From Actinophytocola algeriensis (GTDB lineage: Bacteria > Actinomycetota > Actinomycetes > Mycobacteriales > Pseudonocardiaceae): a DNA stretch of 64,000 nucleotides. Under the pieces are notes generated by a model, which had not been told where the DNA came from, searched no databases, and saw nothing but the letters and a program-made list of their open reading frames with translations. Within the stretch, counting starts at the first letter, position 1, and every line of letters starts with the position of its first letter. This document shows, in pieces, positions 6,458 through 48,739 of the stretch. A program made the translations under genes and the position numbers. The stretch covers positions 1,177,224-1,241,223 of the forward strand of contig NZ_JACHJQ010000002.1 in NCBI RefSeq assembly GCF_014203735.1, read 5' to 3'.

Positions 6458-7306
6458 TCACCGATCGGGTCGCCAGCCTGCCCACGCGGTGCGGTCGAGG
6501 TAGTGGTAGAAGGTCCGGCTGAACGGGGCGTGTGCCACGGCCGGGAGCCATGGTTTGTCCGCGCCGACGAAGTGGACCAGTTTCGGGTTGGTGAGGGCCT
6601 CCTCGACCTCCTCCGACAGCGGCAGCGGCTCGCCCATGCGCCTCGCGACGGCTGCCGCGCCCGCCAGTTCCGGGTAGACGTTCCACGCGGGGTCCAGCGG
6701 GAGCCAGTTGCCGCGCACGACCGCGTTCAGCGCCTCCTGGTCCAGGAAGATCCGGCTCCCGTACTTGCTCACGTACGCGAGGGTCTCCTCGGTGATGTGC
6801 TGCTCGCGCCACACCGCCGGGTTCACCAGGAGGACACCGGCGTTGAAGTACGGGGTGTCGGCGGGGAGGCCGAGTTGCGCCCAGTGCTGGACGCCGCCCG
6901 GCGCGTCCACCCGTGGTACCGCGGGATCCGGGATGGCGCCGAGCGGCCTGCCCTCCAACGGTGTGCGGCACAGTTCGGCCGGGTCGGCGAGCACGACCGT
7001 GTCCGCGTCGACGTACAGCACGGGGTCGTCGTCGGGGAACAGGGCCGGGATCAGCAGCCGCAGGTAGGTCGCGGTCGTGATGTGGCGGACTACCGGGAGG
7101 TCCGCGAAGCGCTCCTCCATGACGGTGACGACGTCCGGGGTGATCTCCGGGCATGACGACAGCACCTTGTCCAGCGCGCCGTCGGAGAGCCGCCGCACGA
7201 GGATCGTCACGTCCGGGTCGCTCGCGTTGTCGACCAGCGACCGGAGGGAGACCGCCAGCGGCATCGCGTAGCTCTCGTCCGCGGCGTACACGATCCGGGT
7301 CCTCAT
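6458..7306 (-). CDS. Family 8 glycosyltransferase (GT8), last gene of the NRPS operon
   Basis: Transfers a sugar from a nucleotide-sugar donor with retention of configuration; acceptor unknown, presumably the cluster product or an intermediate. The 282 residues start RTRIVYAADESYAMPLAVSL, the GT8 donor-binding start. The metal-binding DxD is in LYVDADTVV (about 110), FNAGVLLVNP follows, and the C-terminal HFVGADKPW supplies the third metal ligand (His) and the KPW donor contact. It ends YHYLDRTAWAGWRP, a tail shared by all four GT8 proteins here. It lies 42 nt after the preceding GT8 gene. Length is normal for a catalytic GT8 domain. Confidence 0.88.
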   Translation of the reverse strand: MRTRIVYAADESYAMPLAVSLRSLVDNASDPDVTILVRRLSDGALDKVLSSCPEITPDVVTVMEERFADLPVVRHITTATYLRLLIPALFPDDDPVLYVDADTVVLADPAELCRTPLEGRPLGAIPDPAVPRVDAPGGVQHWAQLGLPADTPYFNAGVLLVNPAVWREQHITEETLAYVSKYGSRIFLDQEALNAVVRGNWLPLDPAWNVYPELAGAAAVARRMGEPLPLSEEVEEALTNPKLVHFVGADKPWLPAVAHAPFSRTFYHYLDRTAWAGWRPDR

Positions 7307-7348
7307 CGGTCCGCCACCGCCATGACTTTCGCCGGTGCGCGGAACAGG

Positions 7349-8236
7349 TCACCGAACATGCGACACCCCCGGCGGTCGCCAGGTCGACCACGCCGTCCGG
7401 TCGACGTAGTGGTAGAACAGGCGGCCGTACGGCGTTCCCGTGCATTCGGCGAACCACGGTTTGTCCTTGCCGACGAACTGCACCAGCTTCGGGTTCTCCA
7501 GCACGGGGGCGTGGTCCTCGTGCACGGAGTACCGGTGCAGGCCGAGCCGTCGCGCGACCATCGCCGCGCCCACGAGCGGGGACCAGATGTTCCACGCCGG
7601 GTCCAGCGGCTGCCACCGCCCCCTCAGGACCGCGTTCATCGCCTCCTGTTCCGGGAACGTCACCTTGTCGTGGTGCGCACGCAGGTAGTCGATCGTCCTG
7701 CCGGTCAGGTCCACGTCCCGCCACGCCACCGGGTCGATCACCATCACGCCGTTGTTGAAGTACGGCGTGCTGCCCGGCACCCCCAGGTCCGCCCACCCCC
7801 ACACCCCGTTCTCCGAGTCGAAGCGCGGCGAGACGGGGTCCACCACCGCGGCGAGGACCGTGCCGTTCAGTGGCATCCCGTTCAGTTCCAGCACGTCGCC
7901 GAGGACGATGGTGTCCGAGTCGAGGTAGACGACCGGCTCGTCACCGGCGAGCAGCGACGGGATCAGCAACCGCAGGTAGATGGTCGCCGTCCAGTACTCG
8001 AACGTGGGCAACCCGTCGAACGCGCTGCCCGGCACCGTCACGAACTCCGGGGTGAGCTCCGGGCACGACGCCCGCAGCCGTTCGAGCGACCCGTCGCTGA
8101 ACCCCGGCGTCAGCACCACCACCGACAGCCGGTCCACATCGGACACGTTGTCAACGAGCGAGCGCATCGACGCGGCCAGCGGCAGCGCGTAGTTCTCGTC
8201 GGCGGTGTACACGACCCGCACGCGGTCGGCGGTCAC
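7349..8236 (-). CDS. Family 8 glycosyltransferase with Gln in place of the C-terminal metal His
   Basis: 295 residues, GT8 fold: RVRVVYTADENYALPLAASM at the start, DxD in VYLDSDTIV, FNNGVMVIDP, and FVGKDKPW near the end. The residue before FVGKDKPW is Gln (VQFVG), whereas the other three GT8 enzymes here and most of the family have His (HFxGxxKPW). That His normally binds the metal, so activity or metal use may be altered. The frame is open upstream, but GTG 8234-8236 is chosen because it overlaps the MFS stop in a GTGA pair and the protein then begins at the family start. Confidence 0.85.
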   Translation of the reverse strand: MTADRVRVVYTADENYALPLAASMRSLVDNVSDVDRLSVVVLTPGFSDGSLERLRASCPELTPEFVTVPGSAFDGLPTFEYWTATIYLRLLIPSLLAGDEPVVYLDSDTIVLGDVLELNGMPLNGTVLAAVVDPVSPRFDSENGVWGWADLGVPGSTPYFNNGVMVIDPVAWRDVDLTGRTIDYLRAHHDKVTFPEQEAMNAVLRGRWQPLDPAWNIWSPLVGAAMVARRLGLHRYSVHEDHAPVLENPKLVQFVGKDKPWFAECTGTPYGRLFYHYVDRTAWSTWRPPGVSHVR

Positions 8237-9537
8237 GACGGGTCCTTGGCCGGTGCGGCGGCCTCGACGCGCACCGGCTCCGGGTGTTCCGGGTCGATGT
8301 CGTCGACGTCCCGCAGGCGCAGCACCGCACCGGTGAGCATGATCGCGGCGCCCGCGGTGGAGATGACCGCGCCGACGAACAGGGTGGTCGCGACCCCGAT
8401 CACAGTGCCGAGCAGACCGCCGAGCAGGTACCCGAACGGCGTCGGCCCCGCGAAGCACATCCGCATCGTCGCGTGCACCCTGCCCTGCAGCGCGTCGGGC
8501 GTGAGCCGCTGGCGGTAGGTGAGCTGGTTGACGTCATACCACGCGTTCGTCGCGCCCGTCACGAGGTTGATGCCGATCAGGATCACGACCGCGTAGCCGA
8601 GCAGCGCGACCGGGGTGATCAGCTCGATCGCCATCCCGAAGAGGATCGAGTAGGCCATCGTGGGGCCGAACCCGAAGCGACGCACGACCTTCGGCAACAG
8701 GATCGCGCCGATGGTGAACGAGATCCCCTCCACCGCCATCACGAAGCCGACCACGCCGGGTCCGAGGTGCAGCGAGTTGTAGACGAACACCAGGAAGACG
8801 GCCTTGATGATGGACTGGCCGAAGTCGCACACGGCGTTCACGACCGCTACCCGTGCCAGCACCGGCTTGCTGAACACGTAGACGACCCCTTCCTTGATCT
8901 CGGTGAGCACCGTGCGCACGCCACCCGTCGCGCGCTCGCGCTTCGGGGCGGTGACCCGCACGGCCATGACCGCGGCCCCGGAGACCACATAGGACACCGC
9001 GTCCACCACCAGCGTCTTCGCGGGCCCGATCGCCTCGATGAGCAGCCCGGCGAGGCTGGGGCCCGCGGTACCGGCGACGGCCCCGGTCGCGCTGAGGCGC
9101 GAGTTCGCCGCCAGCAATTGGTCCGGCGGCACCACCTGCGGCAGGAACGACATGTAGGTGATGTCGAAGAAAACGGTGAAGACGCCGACGACGAACGCGA
9201 CCACGTAGACCACCCACATGTGGTGGTACCCGGACAGGTAGCTGATCGCGAGCAGGGCGACGGCGAGCGCCCTGCCGACGTCGCACACGATGATCACCAC
9301 CCGGCGCGGCAACCGGTCCGCGAGCGGGCCCGCGGGCAGCGAGAACAGCGCGAACGGGGCGACCCCGAGCGCGCCGACGACGCTCGCCTCGAACGGTGTC
9401 GCGTCGTAGACGAGGATCGCGAGGGTGGGGATGGCGAGGATCGACATCTGCGACCCGAAGTCGCTGACCCCCTGCCCGATCCACATCTTGAGGAAGTTGA
9501 ACCGCGCCACCGCGGCCGCCTTGCCCTTCTCCGTCAT
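8233..9537 (-). CDS. MFS multidrug-type exporter
   Basis: A 12-helix major facilitator protein of 434 residues, DHA3/enterobactin-exporter type. The N-terminal helix begins FLKMWIGQGVSDFGSQMSIL. The loop motif between helices 2 and 3 is PAGPLADRLPRR, the canonical G-x-(L/I)-ADR signature. VTGATNAWYDVNQLTYRQRL lies in the C-terminal half. It is the only transporter in the cluster and is probably the exporter and self-resistance pump for the peptide. ATG 9535-9537 follows GGGGGTGAGG and overlaps the DUF885 stop (ATGA). Its own stop overlaps the next GT8 start (GTGA). Confidence 0.88.
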   Translation of the reverse strand: MTEKGKAAAVARFNFLKMWIGQGVSDFGSQMSILAIPTLAILVYDATPFEASVVGALGVAPFALFSLPAGPLADRLPRRVVIIVCDVGRALAVALLAISYLSGYHHMWVVYVVAFVVGVFTVFFDITYMSFLPQVVPPDQLLAANSRLSATGAVAGTAGPSLAGLLIEAIGPAKTLVVDAVSYVVSGAAVMAVRVTAPKRERATGGVRTVLTEIKEGVVYVFSKPVLARVAVVNAVCDFGQSIIKAVFLVFVYNSLHLGPGVVGFVMAVEGISFTIGAILLPKVVRRFGFGPTMAYSILFGMAIELITPVALLGYAVVILIGINLVTGATNAWYDVNQLTYRQRLTPDALQGRVHATMRMCFAGPTPFGYLLGGLLGTVIGVATTLFVGAVISTAGAAIMLTGAVLRLRDVDDIDPEHPEPVRVEAAAPAKDPS

Positions 9538-11159
9538 GACCTCACCCCCGAGGACTCCGAAGTGGACCGTGCACCAGCGGCCGCGTGGCCGTCGAGGTGG
9601 TAGCGCGACGCGGTCGACAGCGGTGCGCTGCCGCACCGGACCAACCGGTCGTGGAACCGTTTCAGCTCCGGCGCCGCGACACGTTCGCGCCACTGCCGGA
9701 TGCGCAGCTTGCCCAGCGTGTACATCGCTCCCACCGGATCGGACACCACGATCAGCACCTCACGCGCGGCGCGCTCCGGCGACCAGCCGCACAGGGTGAT
9801 CGCCCGCGTGACCGCGTCGGCGAACGTCATCCGCCCCATGTGGACGGAGAGGTACACGGCGAGCCGGGTGGCGGCCTCGAGCGCGAACCGCAGCTGGGCG
9901 ACCTCGAGCAGCGGGCGGCCCTCGGCGAGCCCGTGCTCGAGGGCGAGTTCCTCGACGTAGTGCGCCCAGCCCTCGGTGAGACCCGGGAACCACGGCACGC
10001 ACACCCGGAGCACGCTCGGGCCCATGGACGCGGCCTCGATCTGGACGTAATGCCCGGCGAACGCCTCGTGGACCGCGATCACCTCGAGCATCGGGTCGTT
10101 GAGGTGCTCGCCGCGCCCCTCGGCCCCCTCCGGTTCCGGTACCCACAGGATGTGCGGCTGCCGCTCCTGCGCGAGCGGCGCCGAGATGCCGAACTCCACC
10201 AGGGCGCCGCCGCTCAGCCGCGGCGCGCGGCGCACCTCCAGCGGCACGACGGTGTCGACCGACACCAGGTCCTCGGCGGCCCAGAAGTCCCTCAGCCGCG
10301 CCATGATCCCGGTCAGGGCGGTCGTCACCGGCTGGTCGGACACCGCGCCGCCGAGCAGGTCGAACGCCGCGAACCGGTCGGCCACGCCGAGCCGGGCGGC
10401 CACCGCGGCCAGCGCGGCGAGCACCCGGTCCACTTCGGACAGGGTGGCGTCGAGCAGGTCCGCGACGGGCTGGTCGAGACCCTGCGTCGCGCGGAGGAAC
10501 TCGTCGAGCAGCTCAGGGCCGTGCAGGGCCGTGGCCGGTGCGGTCGCCGCCACGCGGTCCGCGAACGCCCGGCAGGCCGCCGACGCCGCGGTCGCCGCGG
10601 CGGAGATCCCGTCCGCCGCGTACCCGGGGTGGTCCAGGGCCACCTGCCGCTCGACGTCGGCGAGCTGCAGCGCCTGCGCCCTGGCCTGTTCGACGGCACA
10701 CAGCCGCTCCCCCGCAGGCAGCCGCGGCCCTATCGCGTCCCCCGCCGCGGTGAGGAGGTCCGGGAGCCGGGTGAGGTGGTCGCGCAGCGCGGTCATCCGA
10801 TCGGCGAGCGGTGCGTGGGTGCCCCTGGGGTAGTCGGTGACGTCCGTCGCGGCGAGCCACTCCCGCGGCCCGCGGAACGGCCGGTCCAGCTCCGCCGCGG
10901 GGAACCGCTCCCCCGCCAGCACGTGGGCCGCCGCGTCCAGGTCGGCGCACAGCTCGGGGTCCGCGGTGGCGGGGAGCTCCGCGAGCTCCCGCCGCAACCG
11001 TGCCAGCATCCGGTCGAGGTCGGCGACGGGGATCGGCTCGACCACCGGCACCCGCGTGCCGGGATCGTGCCGTCCGGCCCGGCGCGCGACGTGCGGATAC
11101 CGCTCGAAGATGTGCTCGACCACCTCGGACACGGCCGCGGTGGCGGTCTGCATGGACAC
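9534..11159 (-). CDS. DUF885 metallohydrolase-like protein (copy 1)
   Basis: 541 residues. DUF885 proteins have a thermolysin-like zinc-peptidase core; no substrate is established for this branch. The metal site is visible as HEAFAGHYVQ (HExxxGH) with the downstream glutamate in LTEGWAHYVEEL. Other landmarks are LWVPEPEG, LRRELAELPATADPEL near residue 60, and AVYLSVHMGRMTF. There is no signal peptide, so it acts in the cytoplasm. A close paralogue lies at 47108-48739. Both are in the cluster and both have a GT8 gene nearby, so processing of a peptide or acyl intermediate is likelier than housekeeping proteolysis. GTG 11157-11159 has GCAGGAG 7 nt upstream. Confidence 0.8.
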   Translation of the reverse strand: MSMQTATAAVSEVVEHIFERYPHVARRAGRHDPGTRVPVVEPIPVADLDRMLARLRRELAELPATADPELCADLDAAAHVLAGERFPAAELDRPFRGPREWLAATDVTDYPRGTHAPLADRMTALRDHLTRLPDLLTAAGDAIGPRLPAGERLCAVEQARAQALQLADVERQVALDHPGYAADGISAAATAASAACRAFADRVAATAPATALHGPELLDEFLRATQGLDQPVADLLDATLSEVDRVLAALAAVAARLGVADRFAAFDLLGGAVSDQPVTTALTGIMARLRDFWAAEDLVSVDTVVPLEVRRAPRLSGGALVEFGISAPLAQERQPHILWVPEPEGAEGRGEHLNDPMLEVIAVHEAFAGHYVQIEAASMGPSVLRVCVPWFPGLTEGWAHYVEELALEHGLAEGRPLLEVAQLRFALEAATRLAVYLSVHMGRMTFADAVTRAITLCGWSPERAAREVLIVVSDPVGAMYTLGKLRIRQWRERVAAPELKRFHDRLVRCGSAPLSTASRYHLDGHAAAGARSTSESSGVRS

Positions 11160-11185
11160 GGGCGAACTCCTGCCTGTCGGTGGTT

Positions 11186-12193
11186 CTAGCGTGGGAGCGG
11201 GAGGCCAGCGCCCGCCGCGAGCGCGGCCGCGTACACCCGCGCGGCGAGTGCGATGTCGTGCACGCCCATCCCGAACGGGTTGACGACCACACGGCCTGCC
11301 CGGCCCGCCGCGTACCCGTGCGGCACGACGGCCGCGAGTTCGGCGTCGACGGCCCGGCCACCCGGCGGTGCGCCGGCGCCCGGCGCGGCCACCCGTCCTG
11401 CGTGGCAGAGCCTGCCGAGCAGCCGGGTGGTGTCCTCACTGACCAGCGCCCAGTCGTCGACGATGAGGTGGTCGCAGCCCAGCAGCACGTCCTCGTCCGC
11501 GTCGTCGAGCGAGACGTTGAGGAACACCGCGTCGGGCGGCAGCCAGTCGAGCCGGACGTAGGGCGTGGTGGTCGTCGTGGCCGCGATGGTGACCTCGGCG
11601 GCGCGCACGGCCTCCTCGGCGCTCGCGGTCCGCACCCGCGCGTGCGGAGCGAACTCCCGTGCCGCGTCGGCGAACGCCCGTGCCTGCCCGTCGTCGACGT
11701 CGTGGACGAGGACGTCGGTGAGGCCGGTCCTGCCCGCGAGCAGCTCCAGGTGGGTGCGTGCCTGGCGGCCCGCGCCGAGGAAGGCCACCCGCCGCACGGC
11801 CGCGAGGTCACGCACCGCGCCCAGCGCCACTAACGACACCGACGCGGTGCGCAGCGCGCTGATGGTCCCCGCCTGCATCAGGCACACGGGCGCCGCGGTG
11901 TCCTCCCCGTTGAGCACGATCAGTCCCTGTGCCCTCGGCAACCCGCGGTCGCGGTTGCCGAGACAGGCGTTGATGATCTTGCAACCGTAGGTCCTGTCGT
12001 GCCGGGCGGGGAGGATCAGGCTGCGTGCCGCCGTGCCGTCCGGTGCGGTCCAGCGCAGTGCCGCCTCCGGGGTGACGGCGGCCCGGCCCGCGCCGACGGC
12101 GAGGAACGCCTCGGTCACGACGTCGAGCGGGTCGATCGCGGACAGGAGCTTCGCGACGGTGGCGCCGTCCAGGTACAGCAAGGGAGTCGTCAT
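11186..12193 (-). CDS. Ornithine cyclodeaminase/mu-crystallin family dehydrogenase, SbnB-like (diaminopropionate pathway)
   Basis: 335 residues with the family layout: N-terminal YLDGATVAKLLSAID, Lys-containing CKIINACLGNR, and a Rossmann dinucleotide motif FLGAGRQARTHLE followed by the hydrophobic SVSLVALGAV region. In staphyloferrin B and related pathways SbnB oxidises N-(1-amino-1-carboxy-2-ethyl)-glutamate to L-2,3-diaminopropionate and 2-oxoglutarate. The family also includes true ornithine cyclodeaminases, so sequence alone leaves the choice open. The SbnA-like enzyme at 41557-42510 in the same operon makes the SbnB role the best reading. It starts 1 nt after the preceding GT8 stop. Confidence 0.8.
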   Translation of the reverse strand: MTTPLLYLDGATVAKLLSAIDPLDVVTEAFLAVGAGRAAVTPEAALRWTAPDGTAARSLILPARHDRTYGCKIINACLGNRDRGLPRAQGLIVLNGEDTAAPVCLMQAGTISALRTASVSLVALGAVRDLAAVRRVAFLGAGRQARTHLELLAGRTGLTDVLVHDVDDGQARAFADAAREFAPHARVRTASAEEAVRAAEVTIAATTTTTPYVRLDWLPPDAVFLNVSLDDADEDVLLGCDHLIVDDWALVSEDTTRLLGRLCHAGRVAAPGAGAPPGGRAVDAELAAVVPHGYAAGRAGRVVVNPFGMGVHDIALAARVYAAALAAGAGLPLPR

Positions 12194-12194
12194 G

Positions 12195-13025
12195 TCATGC
12201 GCTCCTCACGGGCCGCCAGCCGGCCCAGGCGGTGCGGTCGAGGCAGGCGTAGAACAGCGCGCTGAACGGGGCGCGTGCCGAGGAGGCGAGCCACGGCTTG
12301 TCGTCGCCTGCGTAGTGGACGATCCGCGGTTCCGCCGCCAGGTAGTCCGCGGGTACCGGCGAGTCGAGCCCGAGCCTGCGCGCGACCGCTGCCATCCCGA
12401 CGAGCATGTGGTAGACGTTCCAGCCGGGCGCGAGCGGCACCCAGTCGTCCGCGAGCACCAGGTTCAGCGCCTCCTCCGCGGTGACCCGGTCGCCGGTGCG
12501 GGCGAGGTCGACCACCCGGTTCGCCACGTCGTGCGCCCGCCACGCGACCGGGTCGATCACCAGCACGCTGTCGTTGAGGAACGGGCTGTCCGGCGCGAGC
12601 CCGAGCGCCTCCCGCCGCGCGGGCGGCAGCGGCGGGTCGACCGGATCGCGCAGGGCGGCCAAGGTTCGCCCGCCCAGCGCGACATCCCGCAGCGCGGCGA
12701 GGTCGTCCTGGACGACGGTGTCCGCGTCGAGGTAGATCAGCGGGCCGTCGCCGGTGACCAGCTCGGGGAGCCGCAGTCGCAGGTGTGCGAGGGGGTGCCA
12801 GTGGTCGAGGCCCGGTGGCGACGGGTCGGTGACGGTGACGAACTCCGGGGCGAGTTCCGGACAGGACTGGCGGATCAGCGCCACCGTCTCGTCCCGGAGA
12901 CCGGTCGTCACGACCGTCACGACCGGCTCGTCCCGCGCGGTCGCGTGGTCGGCGAGCGACCGCAGCGACACCGCCAGCGGCATCGCGAACTCCTCGTCGA
13001 CGGCATAGCCGACGCGCACGCTCAT
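12195..13025 (-). CDS. Family 8 glycosyltransferase, short and divergent
   Basis: 276 residues: VRVGYAVDEEFAMPLAVSL at the start, DxD in IYLDADTVV, and HYAGDDKPW with the metal His near the end. The segment normally FNAGVxxxDP is FLNDSVLVIDP here, so the acceptor-side loop differs from its three paralogues. It ends YACLDRTAWAGWRPV like the others. It sits between the ferredoxin and the SbnB-like gene. ATG 13023-13025 follows the ferredoxin stop by 10 nt. Confidence 0.85.
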   Translation of the reverse strand: MSVRVGYAVDEEFAMPLAVSLRSLADHATARDEPVVTVVTTGLRDETVALIRQSCPELAPEFVTVTDPSPPGLDHWHPLAHLRLRLPELVTGDGPLIYLDADTVVQDDLAALRDVALGGRTLAALRDPVDPPLPPARREALGLAPDSPFLNDSVLVIDPVAWRAHDVANRVVDLARTGDRVTAEEALNLVLADDWVPLAPGWNVYHMLVGMAAVARRLGLDSPVPADYLAAEPRIVHYAGDDKPWLASSARAPFSALFYACLDRTAWAGWRPVRSA

Positions 13026-13035: not shown

Positions 13036-13257
13036 TCAGTCCACTTGCGACAGGCCGGTCTCGGCGTCGACCACCGCGATCGCGCTCGTCGGGCACAGCT
13101 CCGCCGCGTCCGCGAGCCGGTCGGCCGGGGCCACCTCGGCCGCGGCCGGGCACGAGCGGTCCTCGCCGTCGAGCGTGAAGAAGTCCGGTGCGATCGAGGT
13201 GCAGGTGGCCGAGCCGACGCAGCGGTCCTGGTCGACGGTGATCCGCCATCGGGTCAC
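13036..13257 (-). CDS. [3Fe-4S]-type ferredoxin, P450 electron donor
   Basis: A 73-residue ferredoxin of the kind that passes electrons to actinobacterial cytochromes P450. The cluster-binding pattern is DRCVGSATC (C-x5-C) near residue 14 and ELCPTSAI (the C-P pair) near residue 55; the missing fourth cysteine indicates a 3Fe-4S centre. An extra cysteine in RSCPAAAE is outside the pattern. It is the only ferredoxin seen and probably serves the four P450s of the operon; no ferredoxin reductase is present. GTG 13255-13257 overlaps the stop of the thioesterase gene (GTGA). Confidence 0.88.
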   Translation of the reverse strand: MTRWRITVDQDRCVGSATCTSIAPDFFTLDGEDRSCPAAAEVAPADRLADAAELCPTSAIAVVDAETGLSQVD

Positions 13258-14009
13258 GACGTGCTCCCTTCCTGGTCGAGGTCCATGCCGTCGAGCAGGA
13301 CCGCCCGCAGCTCGGCGGGTGCCTGCAGGAACGTGAAGTGACTGCCGGGCAGCAGGTGGAACTCCGTGCGACCGCAGTCGCGCCACCCGGGCATCAGGCG
13401 GGCGGGGACGTTCGTGTCGTCCCGCCAGCCGATCGCGCTGATCCGGCACGGCAGCCGGAGGGGCGCCGCCACCCGGTAGCGGGCGTTCGCGTCGACGTCG
13501 GCACGCATGACCCGCAGGCACAGCGCCACGAGGTCCTCGACCGGTTCGCCGCCCATGAAGCGGATGAGCCGCCGCACCTCCTCGGCCAGCTCGACGTCGT
13601 CCATGTCGATGTAGGTGCCGTACGGGCCGTCCTGCGGGGCGACCTGCGAGGAGACGAACACGCAGGTGGGCAGTGGGCCGCCGCGCGCGGCGAGCTGGAC
13701 GGCGATCTCGTAGGAGGACAACGCGGAACCGCAGTGGCCGAAGAACCCGAACGGCCGGTCCAGGTGCGGCTCGATCGCCTCGATCACGTCCGCCGCCAGT
13801 GCCTCGTACGTCTCGTGTGGACGCTCACGCAGCCGGTTCTCCCGGCCGGGCAGCTGGACCGGAACAATCTCGAGGTCGCCGACCGCGGCGGGCCAGCCCC
13901 GGTACATGCTCGCGCCGCACCCCGAGTACGGCAGGCAGAACAGTCGCGCCCGCGCGTCCCGGTCCGGTGGCCGCAGGAACCAGCGCGCGGGCCGGGCGGG
14001 CGCGCTCAC
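13254..14009 (-). CDS. Thioesterase-fold protein with Cys nucleophile (GHCGS), possible aminoacyl shuttle
   Basis: 251 residues, alpha/beta-hydrolase fold of the type II thioesterase family. LFCLPYSGCGASMYRGW and VPVQLPGRENRL are the family start. The nucleophile elbow is FFGHCGSALSS, with Cys where editing thioesterases have Ser (GHSMG). The catalytic His is in PGSHFTFLQ. Known Cys members include SyrC and CmaE, which carry aminoacyl groups between carrier domains, and the Cys thioesterases of obafluorin and sulfazecin. Because the assembly line here has two modules without A domains, I favour a shuttle role. GTG 14007-14009 overlaps the P450 stop. Confidence 0.8.
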   Translation of the reverse strand: MSAPARPARWFLRPPDRDARARLFCLPYSGCGASMYRGWPAAVGDLEIVPVQLPGRENRLRERPHETYEALAADVIEAIEPHLDRPFGFFGHCGSALSSYEIAVQLAARGGPLPTCVFVSSQVAPQDGPYGTYIDMDDVELAEEVRRLIRFMGGEPVEDLVALCLRVMRADVDANARYRVAAPLRLPCRISAIGWRDDTNVPARLMPGWRDCGRTEFHLLPGSHFTFLQAPAELRAVLLDGMDLDQEGSTS

Positions 14010-15259
14010 CACGGCTCCCGGCCGGGACGCGGCTTGCCCGCCACCGGCAGCCGGGTGATCCCGGCGACGAAGTTCGACGCGATGTGCTCGACCGGTCCGG
14101 CGAGCTCGAAGTCCGAGAACGCGGCGAACATCTCCGCGAACAGGACCCGCAGCGTCATCCGCGCGATGGCGAACCCCACGCAGTAGTGCGGACCTGAACC
14201 GAAGGTCAGGTGGCGGTTCGGCGTGCGCCGCACGTCGAACGTGTACGGATCGGGGAAGATCTCCTCGTCGCGGTTGGCCGAGCCGTACCAGACGACCACC
14301 CCGTCCCCTTCCGCGATCCGCTTGCCACCCAGCTCGGTCGGCGCGGTGGCGTACCGCAGCACGTGGTTGGCGGGCGACGCCCAGCGCAGCGCCTCCTCGA
14401 CACCGGTCTCGAGCAGTTCGGGGTGCTCGGCCCAGTCGGCGTAGCGGCCGGATTCGATCAGTTCGACCAGCGCGGCCTTCGGCACCTCGGGCACCGTGAC
14501 GGTCGAGCCGATCAGCATCAGGTAGCAGTTGGCCATGACCGCGCCGCGGTCCAGCGGCTCGCCCTCGACGGTCATCGTGAGCAGCACGCTCAGCAGGTCC
14601 TCGCCGAGCGCCTTGCGCCGCGCGGTCGCCGCGTCCTGGAAGTAGGCGAACAGCTCGCGGTGCGCGCGGTGCTGGGTGGCGGCCGCACCCGAGGGCAGCT
14701 GGTGCACCGGGTCGTCCGGCGCGATCGCCATCTCGGCCAGCTCGGTCAGCCGGGTCCAGTCCGGCTCCGGCAGGTCCATGAGGGTGCCGAACATGACCAC
14801 CGGCAGCTGGTGCACGGCGACGCCGAAGTCGATGGGCTCGCCGTCCAGCGCGGGCGCGAGGATCCCGCGGGCGGCGGCCCGGACCCGGTCGCGGTGCCGG
14901 TCGGCGGTGCGGCCGGCGAGCAGGCGCTGCAGCGGCGCCCGCATCTCCGTGTGGCGCGGTGGGTCCGTTGTGGACAGTTGCTGCCTGCTCGCCGGGTCGG
15001 GCTGGCCCAGTAGCGTGAGCAGCGTGCCGCCCTCGGAGGTGAAGGTCCGCGCGTCCCGCAGGACCTTCTCCACGTCGCGGTACCTCGTGACCGACCAGAA
15101 CCCGGTGCCGGGCCCGGTTTCCTGCCAGTGCACGGGATCCCGTTCCCGCATGGCGTGCCACACCGCGTGCGGGTCACCGTACCGGTACAGGTCGGGGTCG
15201 CGCAGGTCCACCGCGTCGAGGTCGACGGCGGCGGCGTCTGCCGGGGCCGTGTGCCTCAT
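14006..15259 (-). CDS. Cytochrome P450, atypical I-helix
   Basis: 417 residues. Heme ligand motif FGSGPHYCVGFAIARM near the C-terminus; ExxR is in GVEEALRW; the K-helix to meander region reads WYGSANRDEEIFPDPYTFD. The I-helix reads NCYLMLIGSTVTVPEV and lacks the usual acid-alcohol pair ((A/G)GxxT with Asp/Glu), as in several P450s that work on carrier-bound substrates. It is encoded between a Cys-type thioesterase and a standalone carrier protein, so oxidation of a carrier-tethered amino acid is the leading guess. The ATG at 15257-15259 overlaps the carrier stop (ATGA). Confidence 0.87.
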   Translation of the reverse strand: MRHTAPADAAAVDLDAVDLRDPDLYRYGDPHAVWHAMRERDPVHWQETGPGTGFWSVTRYRDVEKVLRDARTFTSEGGTLLTLLGQPDPASRQQLSTTDPPRHTEMRAPLQRLLAGRTADRHRDRVRAAARGILAPALDGEPIDFGVAVHQLPVVMFGTLMDLPEPDWTRLTELAEMAIAPDDPVHQLPSGAAATQHRAHRELFAYFQDAATARRKALGEDLLSVLLTMTVEGEPLDRGAVMANCYLMLIGSTVTVPEVPKAALVELIESGRYADWAEHPELLETGVEEALRWASPANHVLRYATAPTELGGKRIAEGDGVVVWYGSANRDEEIFPDPYTFDVRRTPNRHLTFGSGPHYCVGFAIARMTLRVLFAEMFAAFSDFELAGPVEHIASNFVAGITRLPVAGKPRPGREPW

Positions 15260-15555
15260 CGCCCGGCCGCCTCGATCGCCGCCGCCAGCTCCGCCACCGT
15301 CGGTTCGAGGAACAACGTCCGCGCGGCCACCTCGACACCGGTGGCCGCGGCGATGTCCACGAGCAGCTCGGCCGCGGCCAGCGAATGGCCGCCCAGCTCG
15401 AAGAAGTCGTCGTCGATCCCGATCGGCTCGACGCGCAGGCGGTCGCGCCACAGCTCGGCGAGCTGCCGTTCCAGGTCGGTGCCGGGCGCGCGGTACTCCG
15501 ACCACAGGCCGCGGTCCGCCCTCGGCACCATCGCGTCGTGTGTCGTCTCGGTCAT
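15256..15555 (-). CDS. Standalone peptidyl carrier protein
   Basis: 99 residues, a single T domain. The phosphopantetheine site is DDFFELGGHSLAAAELL, with the modified Ser in GGHS. A long N-terminal extension (MTETTHDAMVPRADRG) precedes the domain. It lies between two P450 genes with 4-nt overlaps on both sides, so the three are made together. It probably presents an amino acid to one of those P450s. Loading would need the standalone A-T protein or a Cys-type shuttle, since no A domain is fused. The sequence does not show which enzyme loads it. Confidence 0.88.
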   Translation of the reverse strand: MTETTHDAMVPRADRGLWSEYRAPGTDLERQLAELWRDRLRVEPIGIDDDFFELGGHSLAAAELLVDIAAATGVEVAARTLFLEPTVAELAAAIEAAGR

Positions 15556-41556: not shown

Positions 41557-42510
41557 CTATCCGAGGTTCGCCGCGACCCAGTCGCGGTCGTAGACCGTGT
41601 CGCGGTAGGGCTCACCGCGGTCGGCGCACAGGAACGCGACGACCGGCGGCGGGCCGCGGTGGCTCGCGAAGTACCGGGTGATCGCCGTGTACACCCCGCC
41701 GGTCGAGGCGCCCGCGAAGATGCCGTGGTCGCGCAGCAGGGCGTGGCACCCCGCCACCTCGTCCACCTCGGACACGGTGACGACCTCGGTGATCGTCGCG
41801 TGGTCCAGCAGCGCGGGCCGGATGCTCGACCCGATGCCCGGGATGCGGCGGCGCCGCGGCGCCGCCCCGAAGATCGCCGAACCCTCGACGTCGACCGCGA
41901 CCACCGTGGCCGACGCGTTGCTCTCGACGACCCGGCGGGACAGCCCGGTGACCGTCGCCCCCGACCCGACGCCCGCGAACAGGTAGTCGATCCGGTCCAG
42001 CGCCGCCACCAGCTCGCCGCCGGTCAGCTCGTAGTGCCCCCGCGCGCCGTCGGGGTTGGCGTACTGGTCGGGCCAGTACGCGGCCTCGATCTCCTTGCAC
42101 AGGCGGGCGACGCGGTCCAGCCTGCTCAGCAGGAAACCACCCGCGCTGTCGGGCTCCTCGACCTTCTCCACCCGCGCGCACACCGACCGCAGCACGCGTT
42201 CGGTGGCCGTGTTGACGTTCGGGTCGAGCACCGGGACGAACGGCACACCGAGACGGCCGCAGAACATCGCGAGCGCGAGCGCGAAGTTGCCGGACGAGGA
42301 CTCGACGACGGTCGTGCCGCGCGTGATGTCGCCGCGCCGCACCGCCTCCCGCAGGATCCAGTAGGCCGACCGGTCCTTCGCGCTCCCGCTCGGGTTGGTG
42401 GACTCCAGCTTGGCGAACAGCCGCGACCGCGGGTCCGGCAGGGGCACGAGCGCGGTACCGGGGAGCGTGCCCCTCGCCGCCTCGACCCGCTGCCACAACA
42501 CCTCGTCCAT
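41557..42510 (-). CDS. PLP-dependent SbnA-like synthase (2,3-diaminopropionate pathway)
   Basis: 317 residues, cysteine synthase fold. The PLP lysine is in NPSGSAKDRSAYWIL; the substrate loop VESSSGNFALALA and the phosphate-binding glycines FAGVGSGATVTGLSR are present. SbnA joins O-phosphoserine and glutamate to give N-(1-amino-1-carboxy-2-ethyl)-glutamate, which SbnB then cleaves oxidatively to L-2,3-diaminopropionate. The SbnB-like partner is at 11186-12193 in the same operon. A cysteine or cystathionine synthase role is possible from the fold alone but unlikely in this setting. ATG 42508-42510 lies 5 nt after the SUMF1 stop. Confidence 0.82.
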   Translation of the reverse strand: MDEVLWQRVEAARGTLPGTALVPLPDPRSRLFAKLESTNPSGSAKDRSAYWILREAVRRGDITRGTTVVESSSGNFALALAMFCGRLGVPFVPVLDPNVNTATERVLRSVCARVEKVEEPDSAGGFLLSRLDRVARLCKEIEAAYWPDQYANPDGARGHYELTGGELVAALDRIDYLFAGVGSGATVTGLSRRVVESNASATVVAVDVEGSAIFGAAPRRRRIPGIGSSIRPALLDHATITEVVTVSEVDEVAGCHALLRDHGIFAGASTGGVYTAITRYFASHRGPPPVVAFLCADRGEPYRDTVYDRDWVAANLG

Positions 42511-42515: not shown

Positions 42516-43364
42516 CTAACCCACCGCGCAGACACGGAAACCGATGTCGTAGGAGGTGTACTCGGGGTGCGAGTACACCCGCACCCACGCGGCGGTGCCA
42601 CTCGGGCTGCAGTTGTTGTAGAAGGACCCGCCGCGCACCACACCGAGCTCGACGGGACCGCTGCGCAGCCGCACGGTGCGGGCGGGCTTGGTCTCGTCGT
42701 ACGGGAACAGGTGCCATTTCGTGGCCGCCCACTCCCACACGTTCCCGATGACGTCGGCGAGGCCGAACGGGCCGGCCGCCGCCGGGTAGCGGCCGATGGG
42801 GGTGGTGTCGCCCACGAACATGCTGTGGTTGCACACGTCCGGCGTCGGCGGCGCGTCTCCCCACACGTACTGGCGGCCGTCCGTGCCCCGCGCCGCCATC
42901 TCCCACTCGGCCTCCGTCGGCAGCCGGGTGCCCGACCACGCGCAGTAGGCGAGGCAGTCGGGGCGGCTGACGTGCGTGACCGGGTGGTCGGCCTTGTCGG
43001 CGACATCGGTGCCGGGGCCGCGCGGCGTGCGCCACGACGCACCCTCGACCTCGGCCCACAGGTGGTCCTGGTCCGGTGTGGTGGTGTCCTCGCCACCCAG
43101 CCAGACCCAGCTGCCGCCCTTGCGCTCGGCGGTCGTCACGTACGAGGTCTCCTCGGCGAACCGCGCGAACTCGGCCACCGAGACCGGCGTCCGCGCGATC
43201 CGGAACGCGGGCACGTCGACCGTGTGGGCCGGGTACGCGGCCACGGGCCTGCCGTCGGGGCGGATCTCGTCGCAGCCCATCGTGAACGGGCCGGCCGGGA
43301 TCGTCACCCAGTCCACCGCGACCGGCCGTGACCGGGCGGGTGGCGCACTCGTCAGGTCGGTCAC
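42516..43364 (-). CDS. SUMF1/formylglycine-enzyme-like protein, lacks the FGE cysteine pair
   Basis: 282 residues covering the whole SUMF1 fold: WVTIPAGPFTMGCDE at the start, ISVAEF-type segment (VSVAEFARFAEE), LPTEAEWEMAARG, YVWGDAPPTPDVCN, IGNVWEWAATKW and VVRGGSFYNN. True formylglycine-generating enzymes bind copper with a C-x4-C pair just after RGGS; here that part reads RGGSFYNNCSPSGTAAW with a single Cys, so it should not be a canonical sulfatase activator. SUMF1 proteins in natural product clusters act as oxidative or structural enzymes (PvdO in pyoverdine maturation, the C-terminal part of EgtB). No signal peptide. GTG start overlaps the small protein's stop. Confidence 0.82.
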   Translation of the reverse strand: MTDLTSAPPARSRPVAVDWVTIPAGPFTMGCDEIRPDGRPVAAYPAHTVDVPAFRIARTPVSVAEFARFAEETSYVTTAERKGGSWVWLGGEDTTTPDQDHLWAEVEGASWRTPRGPGTDVADKADHPVTHVSRPDCLAYCAWSGTRLPTEAEWEMAARGTDGRQYVWGDAPPTPDVCNHSMFVGDTTPIGRYPAAAGPFGLADVIGNVWEWAATKWHLFPYDETKPARTVRLRSGPVELGVVRGGSFYNNCSPSGTAAWVRVYSHPEYTSYDIGFRVCAVG

Positions 43365-43982: not shown

Positions 43983-45035
43983 ATGAAGTACCTCGAAACC
44001 ATTCCTCAGGCGCTGGTCAAGTTCCGCCGAGCGCGGTACATGTCGAATGTGCCGGGCCCGTCATCGACGTTGGGGGTCACTGTGGACTGTGAGAGCGCCG
44101 TTCCCGAGGAGACAGAGGTCAGCTCACCCGTGCGGACCGTGCGGCTGGACGAGTTGGCGCCCGCCGACTCGCCGCGCAGCGACGGCGAGGACGAGGCGCA
44201 CGTCCGGCTGCTCGCCAGCGCCGACACGCGACTGCCGCCCATCCTCGTGCACCGCGGCACGATGCGGGTCATCGACGGCATGCACCGGCTGCGTGCCGCA
44301 CGTCTGCGCGGCGACGAGACCATCGAGGTCCGCTACTACGAGGGCTGCGCGGAGCTCGCGTTCGTGCTGGGGGTGCGGGCCAACGTCACCCACGGCCTGC
44401 CGTTGTCGCTGGCCGACCGCGAGGCCGCCGCGGTCCGCATCCTCGCGCTGTACCCGCAGTGGTCCGACCGCGCGATCGCCAGGGCCAGCGGCCTCGCCGC
44501 CAAGACCGTGAAGGGCATCCGCCGGTGTACAACCGGGGACCTTCCGCAATTGCACACCAGGGTCGGCCAGGACGGCCGCGTCCGCCCGGTCGACAGCGCG
44601 AGAGGACGCATACTCGCGAGCGAGGTGCTCGCGGCGAGACCCGGCGCGTCGCTGCGCGAGGTCGCGCGGGTCGCCGGGATCTCCCCGAGCACCGTGCGGG
44701 ACGTGCAGCAACGCGTGCGACGCGGGGAGGACCCCGTCCCCCCGAAACGCCGCGTCCACGCACCGAGCAGGCGGCGCACGACCACATGGGACCAGACCGC
44801 CGCGCTGCAAACCCTGATGCAGGACCCATCGCTGCGGTTGTCGGCGAAGGGAAGGGAACTGCTGCGGTGGCTCCGCGTGATCGCCGTCGAGCGCCTGGAA
44901 TGGCACCAGGTGGTCGACACCGTGCCCGGTCACTGCATGGAGACGGTGGCCGAAGTGGCCCGCGGCTGCGCACAGGAACTGCAGAACCTGGCGGACGAGC
45001 TGGAACGAAGGAATCCGATGGGAGACCACGCATGA
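43983..45035 (+). CDS. StrR-like (ParB-domain) cluster activator
   Basis: 350 residues. StrR, NovG, Bbr and Tei15-type proteins activate antibiotic clusters. The ParB-like domain is recognisable: VRLDELAPADSPRSDGEDEA, LPPILVHRGTMRVIDGMHRL, RAARLRGDETIEVRYY, and NVTHGLPLSLADREAA. Two helix-turn-helix segments follow (YPQWSDRAIARASGLAAKTV and GASLREVARVAGISPSTVRD). It is divergent from the NRPS operon and is probably its activator. The start is uncertain: ATG 43983 is the annotated choice, TTG 43980 and ATG 44040 are alternatives, and no clear SD decides. Its stop overlaps the M24 start (ATGA). Confidence 0.87.
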   Translation: MKYLETIPQALVKFRRARYMSNVPGPSSTLGVTVDCESAVPEETEVSSPVRTVRLDELAPADSPRSDGEDEAHVRLLASADTRLPPILVHRGTMRVIDGMHRLRAARLRGDETIEVRYYEGCAELAFVLGVRANVTHGLPLSLADREAAAVRILALYPQWSDRAIARASGLAAKTVKGIRRCTTGDLPQLHTRVGQDGRVRPVDSARGRILASEVLAARPGASLREVARVAGISPSTVRDVQQRVRRGEDPVPPKRRVHAPSRRRTTTWDQTAALQTLMQDPSLRLSAKGRELLRWLRVIAVERLEWHQVVDTVPGHCMETVAEVARGCAQELQNLADELERRNPMGDHA

Positions 45036-46186
45036 GTGTTCAGCCGGACTATGTCGGAGCGGATTTCGCCGCGGCGGAGTTCGAACAACGCGCGACCCGG
45101 GTACGCGCGGTACTGCGGGAACGGGGGCTCGGCGCGCTGGTGACGACCGGGGCGGAGGACATCTATTACCTGCTGGGGCTGAACTTCCAGGGTTATTCCT
45201 CGTTTTCCCTGCTCGTGCTCCCCGCCATCGGTCCGCTGATCCTCGTGGCCAGGACGATGGAGCGGCACACCATCCAGTACCAGGCGCCGGACGTGAAACA
45301 CGTCGGTTACGGCGACGACGAGGACCCGGCGCGGGCGGTGCTCGCCGCGGTGGCCGAGACCAGCGGCGACATCGGCGTGGACCGGCGGGCGATGTCGTTG
45401 CCCGTCGACATCTGGGAACGCGTGGCCGCCGGGTCCGGGCACCGGGTGTGGCGGGACGGCTCCGGTCTCCTGCCGGCGGTCCGGGCGGTCAAGTCACCCG
45501 CCGAGATCGCCCACGTGCGGGCGGCCGCCGCCATCTCGGACGCTGCGGTCGCCGCCGGTGTCGCCGCGACCCGGGCGGGTGTGTCGGAACGCTCGGTCGC
45601 CGCCGCGATCCACCACGAACTCGTCGAGCGGGGCAGCGAGTACCCGGGCTTCGCCCCGTTCGTGCGCGGCACCGACATCCTGCACCACGAGCACATCACC
45701 TGGCAGGACCGGCCGGTGCGGTCGGGGCAGGGCCTGTTGTTCGAGCTGTCCGCGAGTGTCTACCGCTACCACGCGCCTCTGACCAGGATGGTCTACGCCG
45801 ACCGCCTCCCACCCGGCGTCGCGGCCGCGGCGGCGACCGCGCTGGCCGGGCTCGACGCGATCACGCGGGCGCTTCGTCCCGGCGTGCTGAGCGGCGACGT
45901 CTACACCGCGTGGGAGGACACCGTGGGTGGTCCGGGACGCCACCACTGCGGGTACCTGATCGGTGTCGCGTTCCCGCCGAGCTGGTTCGGCGGCAGCGGC
46001 ATCACCGGGCTGCGCGACGGCAGCGCACTGACCGTCGCGGAGGGCATGGTCTTCCACGTGATGTCGTGGATCCTCGGCGAGAACGCGGGCCAGTACTGCC
46101 TGTCCGACACTGCCCTGGTCACCGCGACAGGGTGTGAGCTGCTGACCCGCGCTCCACGCGAACCTGTCGTGCGGCAGGCCGGATGA
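45032..46186 (+). CDS. M24 family hydrolase, ectoine hydrolase (DoeA/EutD)-like
   Basis: 384 residues with the creatinase/prolidase two-domain layout. The N-terminal domain has TTGAEDIYYLLGLNFQGYSS; the C-terminal pita-bread domain has FELSASVYRYHAPLTRMVY and CGYLIGVAFPPSWFGG. In true M24 peptidases the first of these carries metal-binding Asp residues; here the Asp positions are replaced, as in DoeA/EutD-type ectoine hydrolases, which open a cyclic amidine. So it is unlikely to be an ordinary Xaa-Pro peptidase. It is translationally coupled to the StrR-like gene, which puts it in the cluster. A role on an amide or amidine of the product or precursor is inference. Confidence 0.75.
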   Translation: MSVQPDYVGADFAAAEFEQRATRVRAVLRERGLGALVTTGAEDIYYLLGLNFQGYSSFSLLVLPAIGPLILVARTMERHTIQYQAPDVKHVGYGDDEDPARAVLAAVAETSGDIGVDRRAMSLPVDIWERVAAGSGHRVWRDGSGLLPAVRAVKSPAEIAHVRAAAAISDAAVAAGVAATRAGVSERSVAAAIHHELVERGSEYPGFAPFVRGTDILHHEHITWQDRPVRSGQGLLFELSASVYRYHAPLTRMVYADRLPPGVAAAAATALAGLDAITRALRPGVLSGDVYTAWEDTVGGPGRHHCGYLIGVAFPPSWFGGSGITGLRDGSALTVAEGMVFHVMSWILGENAGQYCLSDTALVTATGCELLTRAPREPVVRQAG

Positions 46187-46190
46187 CCCC

Positions 46191-46248
46191 GCCGGGCGAC
46201 ACCGCCGCGGGGGTGGCACCCGGCGGCGGTCACCCCCGCTCGCCCGGC
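46191..46248. terminator. Strong hairpin between convergent M24 and GT8 genes, bidirectional terminator
   Basis: Nested inverted repeats: outer arms GCCGGGCGA (46191-46199) and TCGCCCGGC (46240-46248), and inner arms GCGGGGGTG (46207-46215) and CACCCCCGC (46231-46239). The hairpin begins 5 nt after the M24 stop and its right arm lies in the last codons of the GT8 gene. It can work in both directions and separates the two operons. Confidence 0.7.
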
Positions 46249-47102
46249 CGCCACCTGGCCCACGCCGTCCGGTCCAGGTGCTCGTAGAAGAGGTCGCTCA
46301 TCGGCCCGCGCCTGCCGTCGACGTGCCACGGCTTGTCCGCGCTGGAGAAGTGCACGACCTTCGGTGCGCGCACCGCGGCCGCGTACCGCTCCGGGAGCGT
46401 GTACGCCAGCCCGAGCCGCGCCGCCATCTCGATGGTGCCGACGACCATCGTGAGGATGTTCCACTCCGGCTCGAGGCGTAGCCAGTCCCCCTTCAGGATC
46501 ACGTTCACCGCCTCCTCGTCCGGGTTCTCGATCTCCTCCCGGTACTTGCGGCAGTACGCCAGCGCTTCGGACATCACACCGAGCCGTCTGCACTCCGCCG
46601 GGTCCACGAGCATCACGCCCGCGTTGAAGTACGGCGTGCTCCGCGCGACGCCCATCTCGACCCACCGCCTGGCCTCCGGTTTGACGTCGAACCGCCGCAT
46701 GATGGGGTCCTGGACCGCGCCGACTGCCTTGCCGTCGAGCGGGGTCCTGCGCAGTTCCCACAGGTCCGTGCGGACGATCGTGTCCGCGTCGAGCACGACG
46801 TACGGTTCGTCGTCCTCGATCAGCGACGGGATCAGCAGCTTCAGGTACGGCGTCACGCTCCAGTGCTCGAGGTCGGGCAGACCGTCGAGCAGGGACCGCG
46901 CCGTCCTGATCACCTCGACGTGGAGCCCAGGGCAGGACTCGAGCACCCTGCCCAGGACCTCGTCGGCGAAGCGTGGCGTCACGATCGTGACGGTGATGTG
47001 CTCGAGGTCGGAGGTGTGTGCCGCCAACGAGTGCAGCGACACGGCGAGCGCCATCGCGTAGTTGTCGTCGACGGTGTACACGACCCGCAGTCGTTCGGTC
47101 AT
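46230..47102 (-). CDS. Family 8 glycosyltransferase of the second operon
   Basis: 290 residues: LRVVYTVDDNYAMALAVSL at the start, DxD in VVLDADTIV, FNAGVMLVDP, and HFSSADKPW with the metal His present (Gly of HxxG replaced by Ser). It ends YEHLDRTAWARWRP, the tail shared by all GT8 proteins of the window. The longer frame upstream is not used: ATG 47100-47102 is the family start and lies 5 nt after the DUF885 stop. It forms a two-gene operon with DUF885 copy 2. Confidence 0.87.
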   Translation of the reverse strand: MTERLRVVYTVDDNYAMALAVSLHSLAAHTSDLEHITVTIVTPRFADEVLGRVLESCPGLHVEVIRTARSLLDGLPDLEHWSVTPYLKLLIPSLIEDDEPYVVLDADTIVRTDLWELRRTPLDGKAVGAVQDPIMRRFDVKPEARRWVEMGVARSTPYFNAGVMLVDPAECRRLGVMSEALAYCRKYREEIENPDEEAVNVILKGDWLRLEPEWNILTMVVGTIEMAARLGLAYTLPERYAAAVRAPKVVHFSSADKPWHVDGRRGPMSDLFYEHLDRTAWARWRPGERG

Positions 47103-47107
47103 GGTCG

Positions 47108-48739
47108 TCAGCTCCCGGTGTCCGTGTCGTCGGTGTGCGCGAGCCCGTCCCGGTAGTAGCGCAGTGCCGTGGACAGCGGGACGTTGCCACAGGCCACGAG
47201 CCGGTCGTGGAACTCCTTCAGTGCCGGGCGGCCCGTGCCCACCTCGCGCCGCCACGCGCGGATGCGTGACTTGCCGAGCGCGTACATGGCGCCGCCCGGG
47301 TCGGCGGCCACGATCACGACCTCGCGCGCCGCGCGTTCCGCCGACCACCCGCACAGCGCCATCGCCCGCGTGACCGAAGCACCGAAGGACGTTCGTCCCA
47401 TGTGGACGGCGAGGAAGACGAGGAGCCGGGTCGTGGCCTCCAACGCGGACCGCAGTTGCGCGACCTCGACGAGCGGGCGGCCCTCCGCGAGCCCCCGCTC
47501 GATCGCCAGCTCCTCGACGTAGTGCCCCCACCCCTCGGTGAACGCGGGGAACCACGGCACGCAGGCCCGCAGCACGCTCGGGCCCCTGGTGACCGCTTCG
47601 ATCTGGACGTAGTGACCCGGCACGGCCTCGTGGACCGCGATGACCTCGAGCATGGGGTCGTTGAGGAACCGGACGCGCACGTCACCGTGTCCGCTGTCCG
47701 GCTCCGGCACCCAGAGCACGTGCGGCGCGCGGTCTCGCGCCAGTGGCGGGGAGATGCTGAACTCCACCCTGGCGGCGCCGGTGAGCCGCGGTGCCCGGCG
47801 GACCTCCAGCGGCGTCGCGGTGTCGACGGACACCACGTCGGCGCGGGCCCAGAACTCCCGCAGCCTGGCGATGGTCGCGGTGAGGACGTCCGGCACGGGC
47901 GCGGCGGAGACCTCCGCACGCAGCAGGTCGAACGCCTCGCCGCGACCGGACACGCCGAGCCGGGCCGCGAGGGCGTCGAGCCGGGCGACCAGCGCGGCAA
48001 CCTCGGTCTCGGCGTGGTCGAGCAGTTCCTCCGCCTGCTGGTCGACGCCCTGCGTCACCTGGAGGAACTCGTCGAGCAACTCGGGGCCGTACAACAGGTT
48101 CGCGGGCTCGGCGGCCGCCACCGCTTCCGCGTACCGCCTGCACGCCGCCGCGGCCTCGGCGGCGGCCACCGCGATGCCGTCCTCCGCGTATCCGGAGTGG
48201 TCGCGCGCCACCACGCGGCCGACGTCCTCGAGTCGTGCCGCCTGCGCGCGGGCGTACTCGATCCCGATGAGCCGTTCACCGGCCGGGAGGCGGTCGGCGA
48301 CCGTGCCGGCGGCCTGTTCGAGGAAACGTGGCAGGCCGGCCAGTTGTGCGCGCAGCGCGGCCATGCGGTCGACGAGCGACGGGTGCCCGGCGTCGGGAAG
48401 ACCGGGCACGTCCGTGGCGCCGAGCCACGTCAGCGGGCCCGGCCAGGCGCGGCCGAGCGCGGCGGCGGGGAACCGTTCGCTGCCGAGGACGTGGACGGCC
48501 GCGTCCAGGTCGGCACGCAGCTCGGGGTCGGCCGTGGCTGGCAGCGCGGCCAGCTCGGCACGCGCGGTGGCCAGCAGGTCGTCGAGCGCACCGACCGGGT
48601 GCGGACCCACCTCGGGCAGCACACCGTCGAACTCGTGGCTGCCCGCCCGCCTGGCGACGTGGGGGTGGTGGGAGAAGATGTGATCCACCACTGAGGACAC
48701 CGCGGCGTTCGCGGTCCCGATGTCGGCCTGTGTGCTCAT
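47108..48739 (-). CDS. DUF885 metallohydrolase-like protein (copy 2)
   Basis: 543 residues, closely similar over the whole length to the protein at 9534-11159 (shared blocks: HPHVARRAGSH, AELAALPATADPELRADLDA, YGPELLDEFLQVTQGVDQ, LWVPEPDS, CVPWFPAFTEGWGHYVEEL, MALCGWSAERAAREV). The metal site is HEAVPGHYVQ plus the Glu in TEGWGHY. Two near-full-length copies in one cluster suggest two similar steps or two product parts. ATG 48737-48739 is used; AAAGGAGG lies about 12 nt upstream, a little far. First gene of its operon. Confidence 0.8.
   Translation of the reverse strand: MSTQADIGTANAAVSSVVDHIFSHHPHVARRAGSHEFDGVLPEVGPHPVGALDDLLATARAELAALPATADPELRADLDAAVHVLGSERFPAAALGRAWPGPLTWLGATDVPGLPDAGHPSLVDRMAALRAQLAGLPRFLEQAAGTVADRLPAGERLIGIEYARAQAARLEDVGRVVARDHSGYAEDGIAVAAAEAAAACRRYAEAVAAAEPANLLYGPELLDEFLQVTQGVDQQAEELLDHAETEVAALVARLDALAARLGVSGRGEAFDLLRAEVSAAPVPDVLTATIARLREFWARADVVSVDTATPLEVRRAPRLTGAARVEFSISPPLARDRAPHVLWVPEPDSGHGDVRVRFLNDPMLEVIAVHEAVPGHYVQIEAVTRGPSVLRACVPWFPAFTEGWGHYVEELAIERGLAEGRPLVEVAQLRSALEATTRLLVFLAVHMGRTSFGASVTRAMALCGWSAERAAREVVIVAADPGGAMYALGKSRIRAWRREVGTGRPALKEFHDRLVACGNVPLSTALRYYRDGLAHTDDTDTGS

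Follow-up and report, generated by a model that had tools for sequence, protein, structure and literature searches.

What kind of product would the locus at positions 6458-48739 of a 64,000-nucleotide stretch of Actinophytocola algeriensis DNA (contig NZ_JACHJQ010000002.1; hereafter, the window) make, and is its gene set without counterpart? An earlier note, made from the letters alone, had read it as an unmatched combination around a nonribosomal peptide synthetase (NRPS) that could not be linked to a known product. Judged by sequence comparison, the cluster is real and coherent, and it belongs to a conserved NRPS family of actinomycetes that is still uncharacterised. The uniqueness did not stand: the core is common to ten other actinomycetes, so the novelty does not lie in a singular gene set, and we provisionally place it in the uncharacterised cluster family and in its variant with family 8 glycosyltransferases (GT8). 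The missing link to a product is not refuted: no product was named for the cluster in the literature, a weak negative that covers open-licence PMC papers only.

We traced the family through orthologues of a core protein with the SUMF1 fold. They were found at E ≤ 1e-60 in 4/390 genomes of the window's taxonomic family (own genome included) and in 1/396 genomes of an even sample of the phylum, again the own genome. Among GTDB contigs, 28 loci were recovered: nine had 60-69% identity, and the remaining 19 did not exceed 40%. Nine GTDB loci and the family hits, with two loci common to both, make up the ten relatives, actinomycetes that include Saccharopolyspora, Umezawaea, Streptomyces, Micromonospora, and Hamadaea. 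Gene content was compared in the 45-80 kb around each core; the S. silvae contig spans only 45.5 kb and its arms may be cut.

NrpsA, NrpsB, NrpsC, the acylase, the SUMF1-fold protein, DUF885, the thioesterase TE3, and a didomain of adenylation and carrier domains (A-T) were each present in 10/10 relatives (41-79% identity), and the order DUF885-SUMF1-SbnA-P450d-NrpsA-B-C-acylase was the same in eight of them. SbnA (66-72%) and P450d (48-64%) were each found in 9/10, P450a (44-85%) in 6/10, SbnB (60-66%) in 6/10, with 43% in Hamadaea, and a regulator homologue (41-45%) in 3/10. This recurrence in ten other genomes makes the cluster more than chance. The nearest relative, a sister type, is the S. 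shandongensis cluster (L011-L014), which has the common core and alone shares P450b, P450c, the free T, and TE2 above 60% identity (63-81%). Unlike the window, it has no GT8 or M24 gene, and its divergent SbnA (37%) and SbnB (29%) are both located away from the core.

Four Streptomyces clusters carry an FMN_bind_2 protein, which in S. atratus forms a fusion with an A domain; we take the protein to be PaiB/KtzT-like, pointing to piperazate. Near the core of the S. griseus BIG105 and Umezawaea relatives lie genes read as CysD/CysN and one that resembles an N-monooxygenase, and the S. griseus relative also has a second DUF885. The family spans Pseudonocardiaceae, Streptomyces, Micromonospora, and Hamadaea; a conserved pharmacophore is what such a nearly fixed core with variable arms usually indicates.

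The assembly line appears to be lipo-initiated, as the earlier note had proposed. The best solved relatives of the first NrpsA domain are the FAAL-type enzymes FadD23 and FadD32, and directly after it stand a T domain with its serine (GxDS) and a condensation (C) domain with HHxxxD, both kept in 11/11 genomes. Carrier serines and condensation histidines were intact across the relatives compared, and NrpsC ends in a C domain with no T following in cis.

The A1 domain has the same nine-residue code (DIWELTADD in 8/11 genomes, a conservative variant in 3/11) as a PvdL domain, presumably the 2,4-diaminobutyrate (Dab) domain, and PvdL was the best of 15 hits for the 133-residue pocket stretch. A2 presented DIWEVTADD or DIWEITADD in 11/11 genomes, and positions E, T, A, D, D of both domains were invariant in all 11. 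Because the nine residues equal those of the PvdL domain, A1 is expected to use Dab or 2,3-diaminopropionate (Dap). The two are not separable here, since a survey of A-domain signatures (PMC12283262) states 80% identity between two Dap signatures and those for Dab. SbnA scored above the cut-off of NCBIfam TIGR03945 (367.8 bits; cut-off 349.95), and SbnB matched TIGR03944 under it (187.1 bits; cut-off 326.9). Thus, the use of Dap suggested earlier is likely given SbnA/SbnB but not exclusive, with an A1 code identical to that of PvdL. The A3 code, which across 10 genomes varies little around DVYS(L/V)A(L/M)VH, has no substrate known to us; in Hamadaea tsunoensis, A3 is cleanly lost between C and T, which leaves a third A-less module.

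The two A-less modules reported earlier are present as C-T modules, one in NrpsB and one in NrpsC. A stand-alone A-T with Val-like codes was found in all 11 genomes: DAF(F/L)LGAVF in the window; DPFWLGGCF, DA(F/L)WLGGTF, and one DVWWLGGTF in the relatives. We take these codes to mean Val/Ile-like residues. TE3 has an active-site Cys (GHC) in 11/11 genomes, TE2 also has GHC, and TE1 has Ser (GHS), so two of the three stand-alone thioesterases are of the Cys type named earlier. P450a matched the solved structures 4l0e (240 bits) and 3mgx (193 bits), which we take to be P450sky and OxyD, hydroxylases of carrier-bound amino acids. An A-T didomain, an A-less C-T module, and a stand-alone hydrolase co-occur here as in the trans aminoacyl shuttle systems LgnA, CmaE, and SyrC; CmaE and SyrC are of the Cys type.

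Two published precedents are each compatible with the A-less modules. The type II thioesterase LgnA moves an aminoacyl group between carriers (PMC8748450). Capreomycin offers trans-iterative loading, in which the A-less CmnI is served in trans by CmnA-A1, a Dap domain (PMC12400406). Following the latter, A1 or A2 might load the A-less modules here with another diamino acid, leaving the Cys-thioesterases and A-T to serve only the last hydroxylated residue through the terminal C domain; the product would then be richer in Dab/Dap. The conservation of A1/A2 in 11/11 genomes and a terminal C without T in cis, which suits a residue delivered by A-T, make this a real possibility, if an unlikely one: alone, it leaves unexplained why a Cys-thioesterase stands beside A-T in every genome.

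The Cys in two of the three thioesterases, together with the pathway for diamino acid supply, could also speak for release by closure of a beta-lactam or beta-lactone, a strained ring that would make the product a warhead. Such release is known for sulfazecin and obafluorin, where the domain sits in cis. We consider it highly improbable in the window, where the thioesterases stand alone as type II enzymes, with RedJ/RifR-like structures (3qmv, 3fla) as nearest relatives, rather than forming C-terminal release domains.

Three protein types are candidates for maturation. The acylase kept the nucleophile motif GSNxW (Ser) in 11/11 genomes. Where its N-terminus is fully called, it has two hydrophobic stretches flanked by basic residues, seen as two helices in a poor structure model; by the positive-inside rule, this predicted twin membrane hairpin may leave the enzyme facing the cytosol, unlike PvdQ. 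The SUMF1-fold protein resembles formylglycine-generating enzymes (FGEs) at 130 bits. Compared with solved FGEs, it presented Asn and Ser/Arg/Met at both copper-Cys positions after GGSF in 11/11 genomes, these being the cysteines that we take to bind copper. A Cys stands two positions further on in 10/11, with Phe in one relative (G018). Going by this alignment, the protein cannot be an ordinary FGE, since it lacks both copper cysteines of true FGEs. In DUF885, HExxxGH was kept in 12/12 proteins; it is longer than the classical HExxH, and the putative peptidase activity is deduced from the fold.

The window's own arm was assessed separately. All four GT8 genes encode a GT8 domain with a DXD-type metal motif (nearest solved relative LgtC, through GT8a), and the proteins are mutually 41-52% identical. 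Neither GT8 nor the M24 peptidase was found at E ≤ 1e-3 in the regions around the ten relatives (0/10 for each). We therefore read both as a strain-specific decoration, the GT8 set being, on present comparisons, the variant feature of the cluster: GT8 decoration as first described fits this strain but none of the related clusters. That absence, and the ~2.9 kb with two opposite-strand genes between GT8d and the main operon, would also suit a separate or merged cluster –GT8d, DUF885b, and M24 at the right end plus the other GT8 genes– that does not act on the NRPS product. We find this distinctly unlikely, as GT8a, GT8b, and GT8c lie within a run of co-directed, mostly overlapping or near-overlapping genes, and DUF885b is a 63% paralogue of the core DUF885a.

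By eye, other GT8 genes of the family (L102, G072; L103, G066) lie near NRPS and StrR-like genes, so the pairing of GT8 with StrR may not be confined to this cluster type. In the window's own genome, an unrelated second NRPS locus (L110, contig C10, ~262-280 kb) contains genes for an EctB-like aminotransferase and a cupin-like protein, along with a StrR-like gene 53.9% identical to that of the window.

Taken together, we favour, with about half of our confidence, cationic peptides that are started on a lipid and deacylated later, from an uncharacterised family in which the A-less modules are fed hydroxylated aliphatic residues through Cys-thioesterases. FAAL would load a fatty acid, and A1 and A2 would add two diamino acids, Dab and/or Dap, the latter from SbnA/SbnB. 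The first A-less module, A3, and the second A-less module would lengthen the chain to ~5 residues, and the terminal C domain would pass it to a carrier in trans. The A-T didomain would activate an aliphatic amino acid (Val/Ile-like), P450a-c would hydroxylate it on its carrier, and the Cys-thioesterases would take the hydroxylated residue to the A-less modules. The acylase may then cut off the fatty cap, making the lipid a temporary handle, and DUF885 may trim or protect. In this strain alone, GT8 enzymes would add sugars to the product, probably at the newly made hydroxyls, and the MFS pump would export it.

Several points weigh against this proposal. What the sequences show directly are the genes, their domain order, the A-domain codes, the catalytic residues, and the conservation; product, substrates, activity, shuttle, cap removal, glycosylation, and export are all predicted, and the claim of a 54-kb family, free of literature, has open genomes as its only source. 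The whole A1 domain scored higher against Txo2 (322 bits) than against PvdL (316 bits), and the two-domain LgrA also ranked above PvdL in summed score. Among solved structures, a reconstructed CYP125 (8vxg, 270 bits) is the best match to P450a and outscores 4l0e, and 4/10 relatives have no close match to P450a (28-36% only). The published shuttle LgnA has Ser, not Cys (PMC8748450). Finally, the solved structures related to the acylase come from glutaryl-7-ACA and penicillin G acylases, and PvdQ is not among its 18 PDB hits (E ≤ 0.001).

The enzymes of interest are the SUMF1-fold protein unlike an ordinary FGE, the Cys-thioesterases as possible shuttles, the presumably temporary fatty-acid cap, and the GT8 enzymes, a set that may decorate the product or protect the producer itself.

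A frame-plot gene call with Pfam/NCBIfam scans of the window located every family named in the earlier note, with GT8 (four), DUF885 (two), P450 (four), penicillin amidase, the SUMF1/FGE fold, and NRPS domains each matched in Pfam. It added the A-T didomain, free T, Ser-type thioesterase, MFS protein, M24 peptidase, and a broken frame (40913-41541, minus strand) between SbnA and P450d: two short frames that, by eye, look like fragments of a single secreted protein resembling a sialidase/BNR. From 43364 down to 6458, every gene is on the minus strand, most overlapping or a few bases apart, with larger gaps before P450d (658 bases) and GT8c (228 bases). The plus strand carries the regulator and M24 peptidase (44040-46186), and beyond them GT8d and DUF885b are on the minus strand. 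Pfam shows only HTH domains in the regulator, and StrR-like is our presumed name for it. Outside the cluster are two Ser/Thr kinases with an FHA protein (1245-5360, plus strand) and a large nSTAND1-WD40 protein (60473-63997, minus strand).

Features of the cluster, with positions in the window and the evidence for each assignment
Feature	Position	Strand	Evidence
GT8a, family 8 glycosyltransferase	6458..7306	-	Pfam E 7.5e-38; DXD motif; nearest solved relative LgtC
GT8b	7349..8236	-	Pfam E 1.6e-36; 51.8% to GT8a
MFS exporter (predicted)	8233..9537	-	Pfam MFS_1; 67% to S. shandongensis
DUF885a, predicted zinc-peptidase-like protein	9534..11159	-	Pfam E 3e-45; HExxxGH; fold search
SbnB-like dehydrogenase	11186..12193	-	TIGR03944, below cut-off
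GT8c	12195..13025	-	Pfam E 9e-26
TE3, Cys-type thioesterase, proposed aminoacyl shuttle	13254..14012	-	Pfam thioesterase; GHC
P450a, proposed carrier-bound amino-acid hydroxylase	14006..15259	-	Pfam; solved relatives 4l0e, 8vxg
Free-standing carrier protein (T)	15256..15555	-	Pfam PP-binding E 6e-16
P450b	15552..16808	-	Pfam; 81% to S. shandongensis
P450c	16879..18120	-	Pfam; 77% to S. shandongensis
A-T didomain, aliphatic (Val/Ile-like) code	18129..19925	-	Pfam A, A-C, T; code
TE2, Cys-type thioesterase	19925..20659	-	Pfam; GHC
TE1, Ser-type thioesterase (editing)	20673..21443	-	Pfam; GHS
Penicillin-acylase family enzyme, proposed cap remover	21440..23704	-	Pfam E 6e-98; GSNxW
NrpsC: TubC_N-C-A3-T-C-T-C, A-less module 25081-26649	23701..29955	-	Domain scans
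NrpsB: A2-T-C-T, A-less module 30015-31472	29952..33212	-	Domain scans
NrpsA: FAAL-T-C-A1-T-C	33215..39718	-	Domain scans; solved relatives; code
P450d, start uncertain (40916 or 40898)	39708..40916	-	Pfam
SbnA, 2,3-diaminopropionate biosynthesis	41557..42510	-	TIGR03945 above cut-off
SUMF1/FGE-fold protein without copper cysteines	42516..43364	-	Pfam E 5e-60; alignment to solved FGEs
StrR-like regulator	44040..45035	+	Pfam HTH_23
M24 peptidase with creatinase N-terminal domain (start approximate)	45038..46186	+	Pfam E 3e-24
GT8d	46230..47102	-	Pfam E 2e-34
DUF885b	47108..48739	-	Pfam E 3e-49; 63.0% to DUF885a

Among known systems, the pyoverdine pathway of Pseudomonas shares the same kinds of parts, if we take the names rightly: an NRPS started by FAAL (PvdL) with an identical nine-residue A code, an acylase of the penicillin-acylase family with a nucleophile Ser (PvdQ), and a SUMF1-fold protein (PvdO). 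A siderophore or metallophore matured in the pyoverdine manner has, even so, a very slight probability. By eye, no Tyr-like code occurs among the window's four A domains, and no catechol or hydroxamate enzyme is found in its cluster. The SUMF1-fold protein matched PvdO only weakly, at 30 bits (E 3e-6), whereas FGE reached 130 bits, and the window acylase, preceded by its predicted hairpin, is nearest, among its 18 PDB hits, to acylases other than PvdQ. A long shot is that this maturation logic serves another purpose: an acyl-capped Dab/Dap peptide would be deacylated by the hairpin-anchored acylase, possibly facing the cytosol, ring closure of its neighbouring diamino acids, aided by the copper-free SUMF1-fold enzyme, would give a shared pharmacophore, either a cyclic amidine or one related to it, and each strain would add its own arm, here multiply glycosylated.

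The favoured shuttle-fed, later deacylated peptide has partial parallels elsewhere. FGEs share the fold with the SUMF1-fold protein but not the residues at both copper-Cys positions. The tuberactinomycins capreomycin and viomycin have Dap supply and an A-less module as well (PMC12400406), whereas the window adds a FAAL start, an acylase, carrier-type P450s, and Cys-thioesterases. The trans shuttles LgnA, CmaE, and SyrC likewise combine an A-T didomain, a stand-alone alpha/beta-hydrolase, and an A-less module (PMC8748450); unlike LgnA with its Ser, the window has Cys, together with two A-less modules and up to three P450s.

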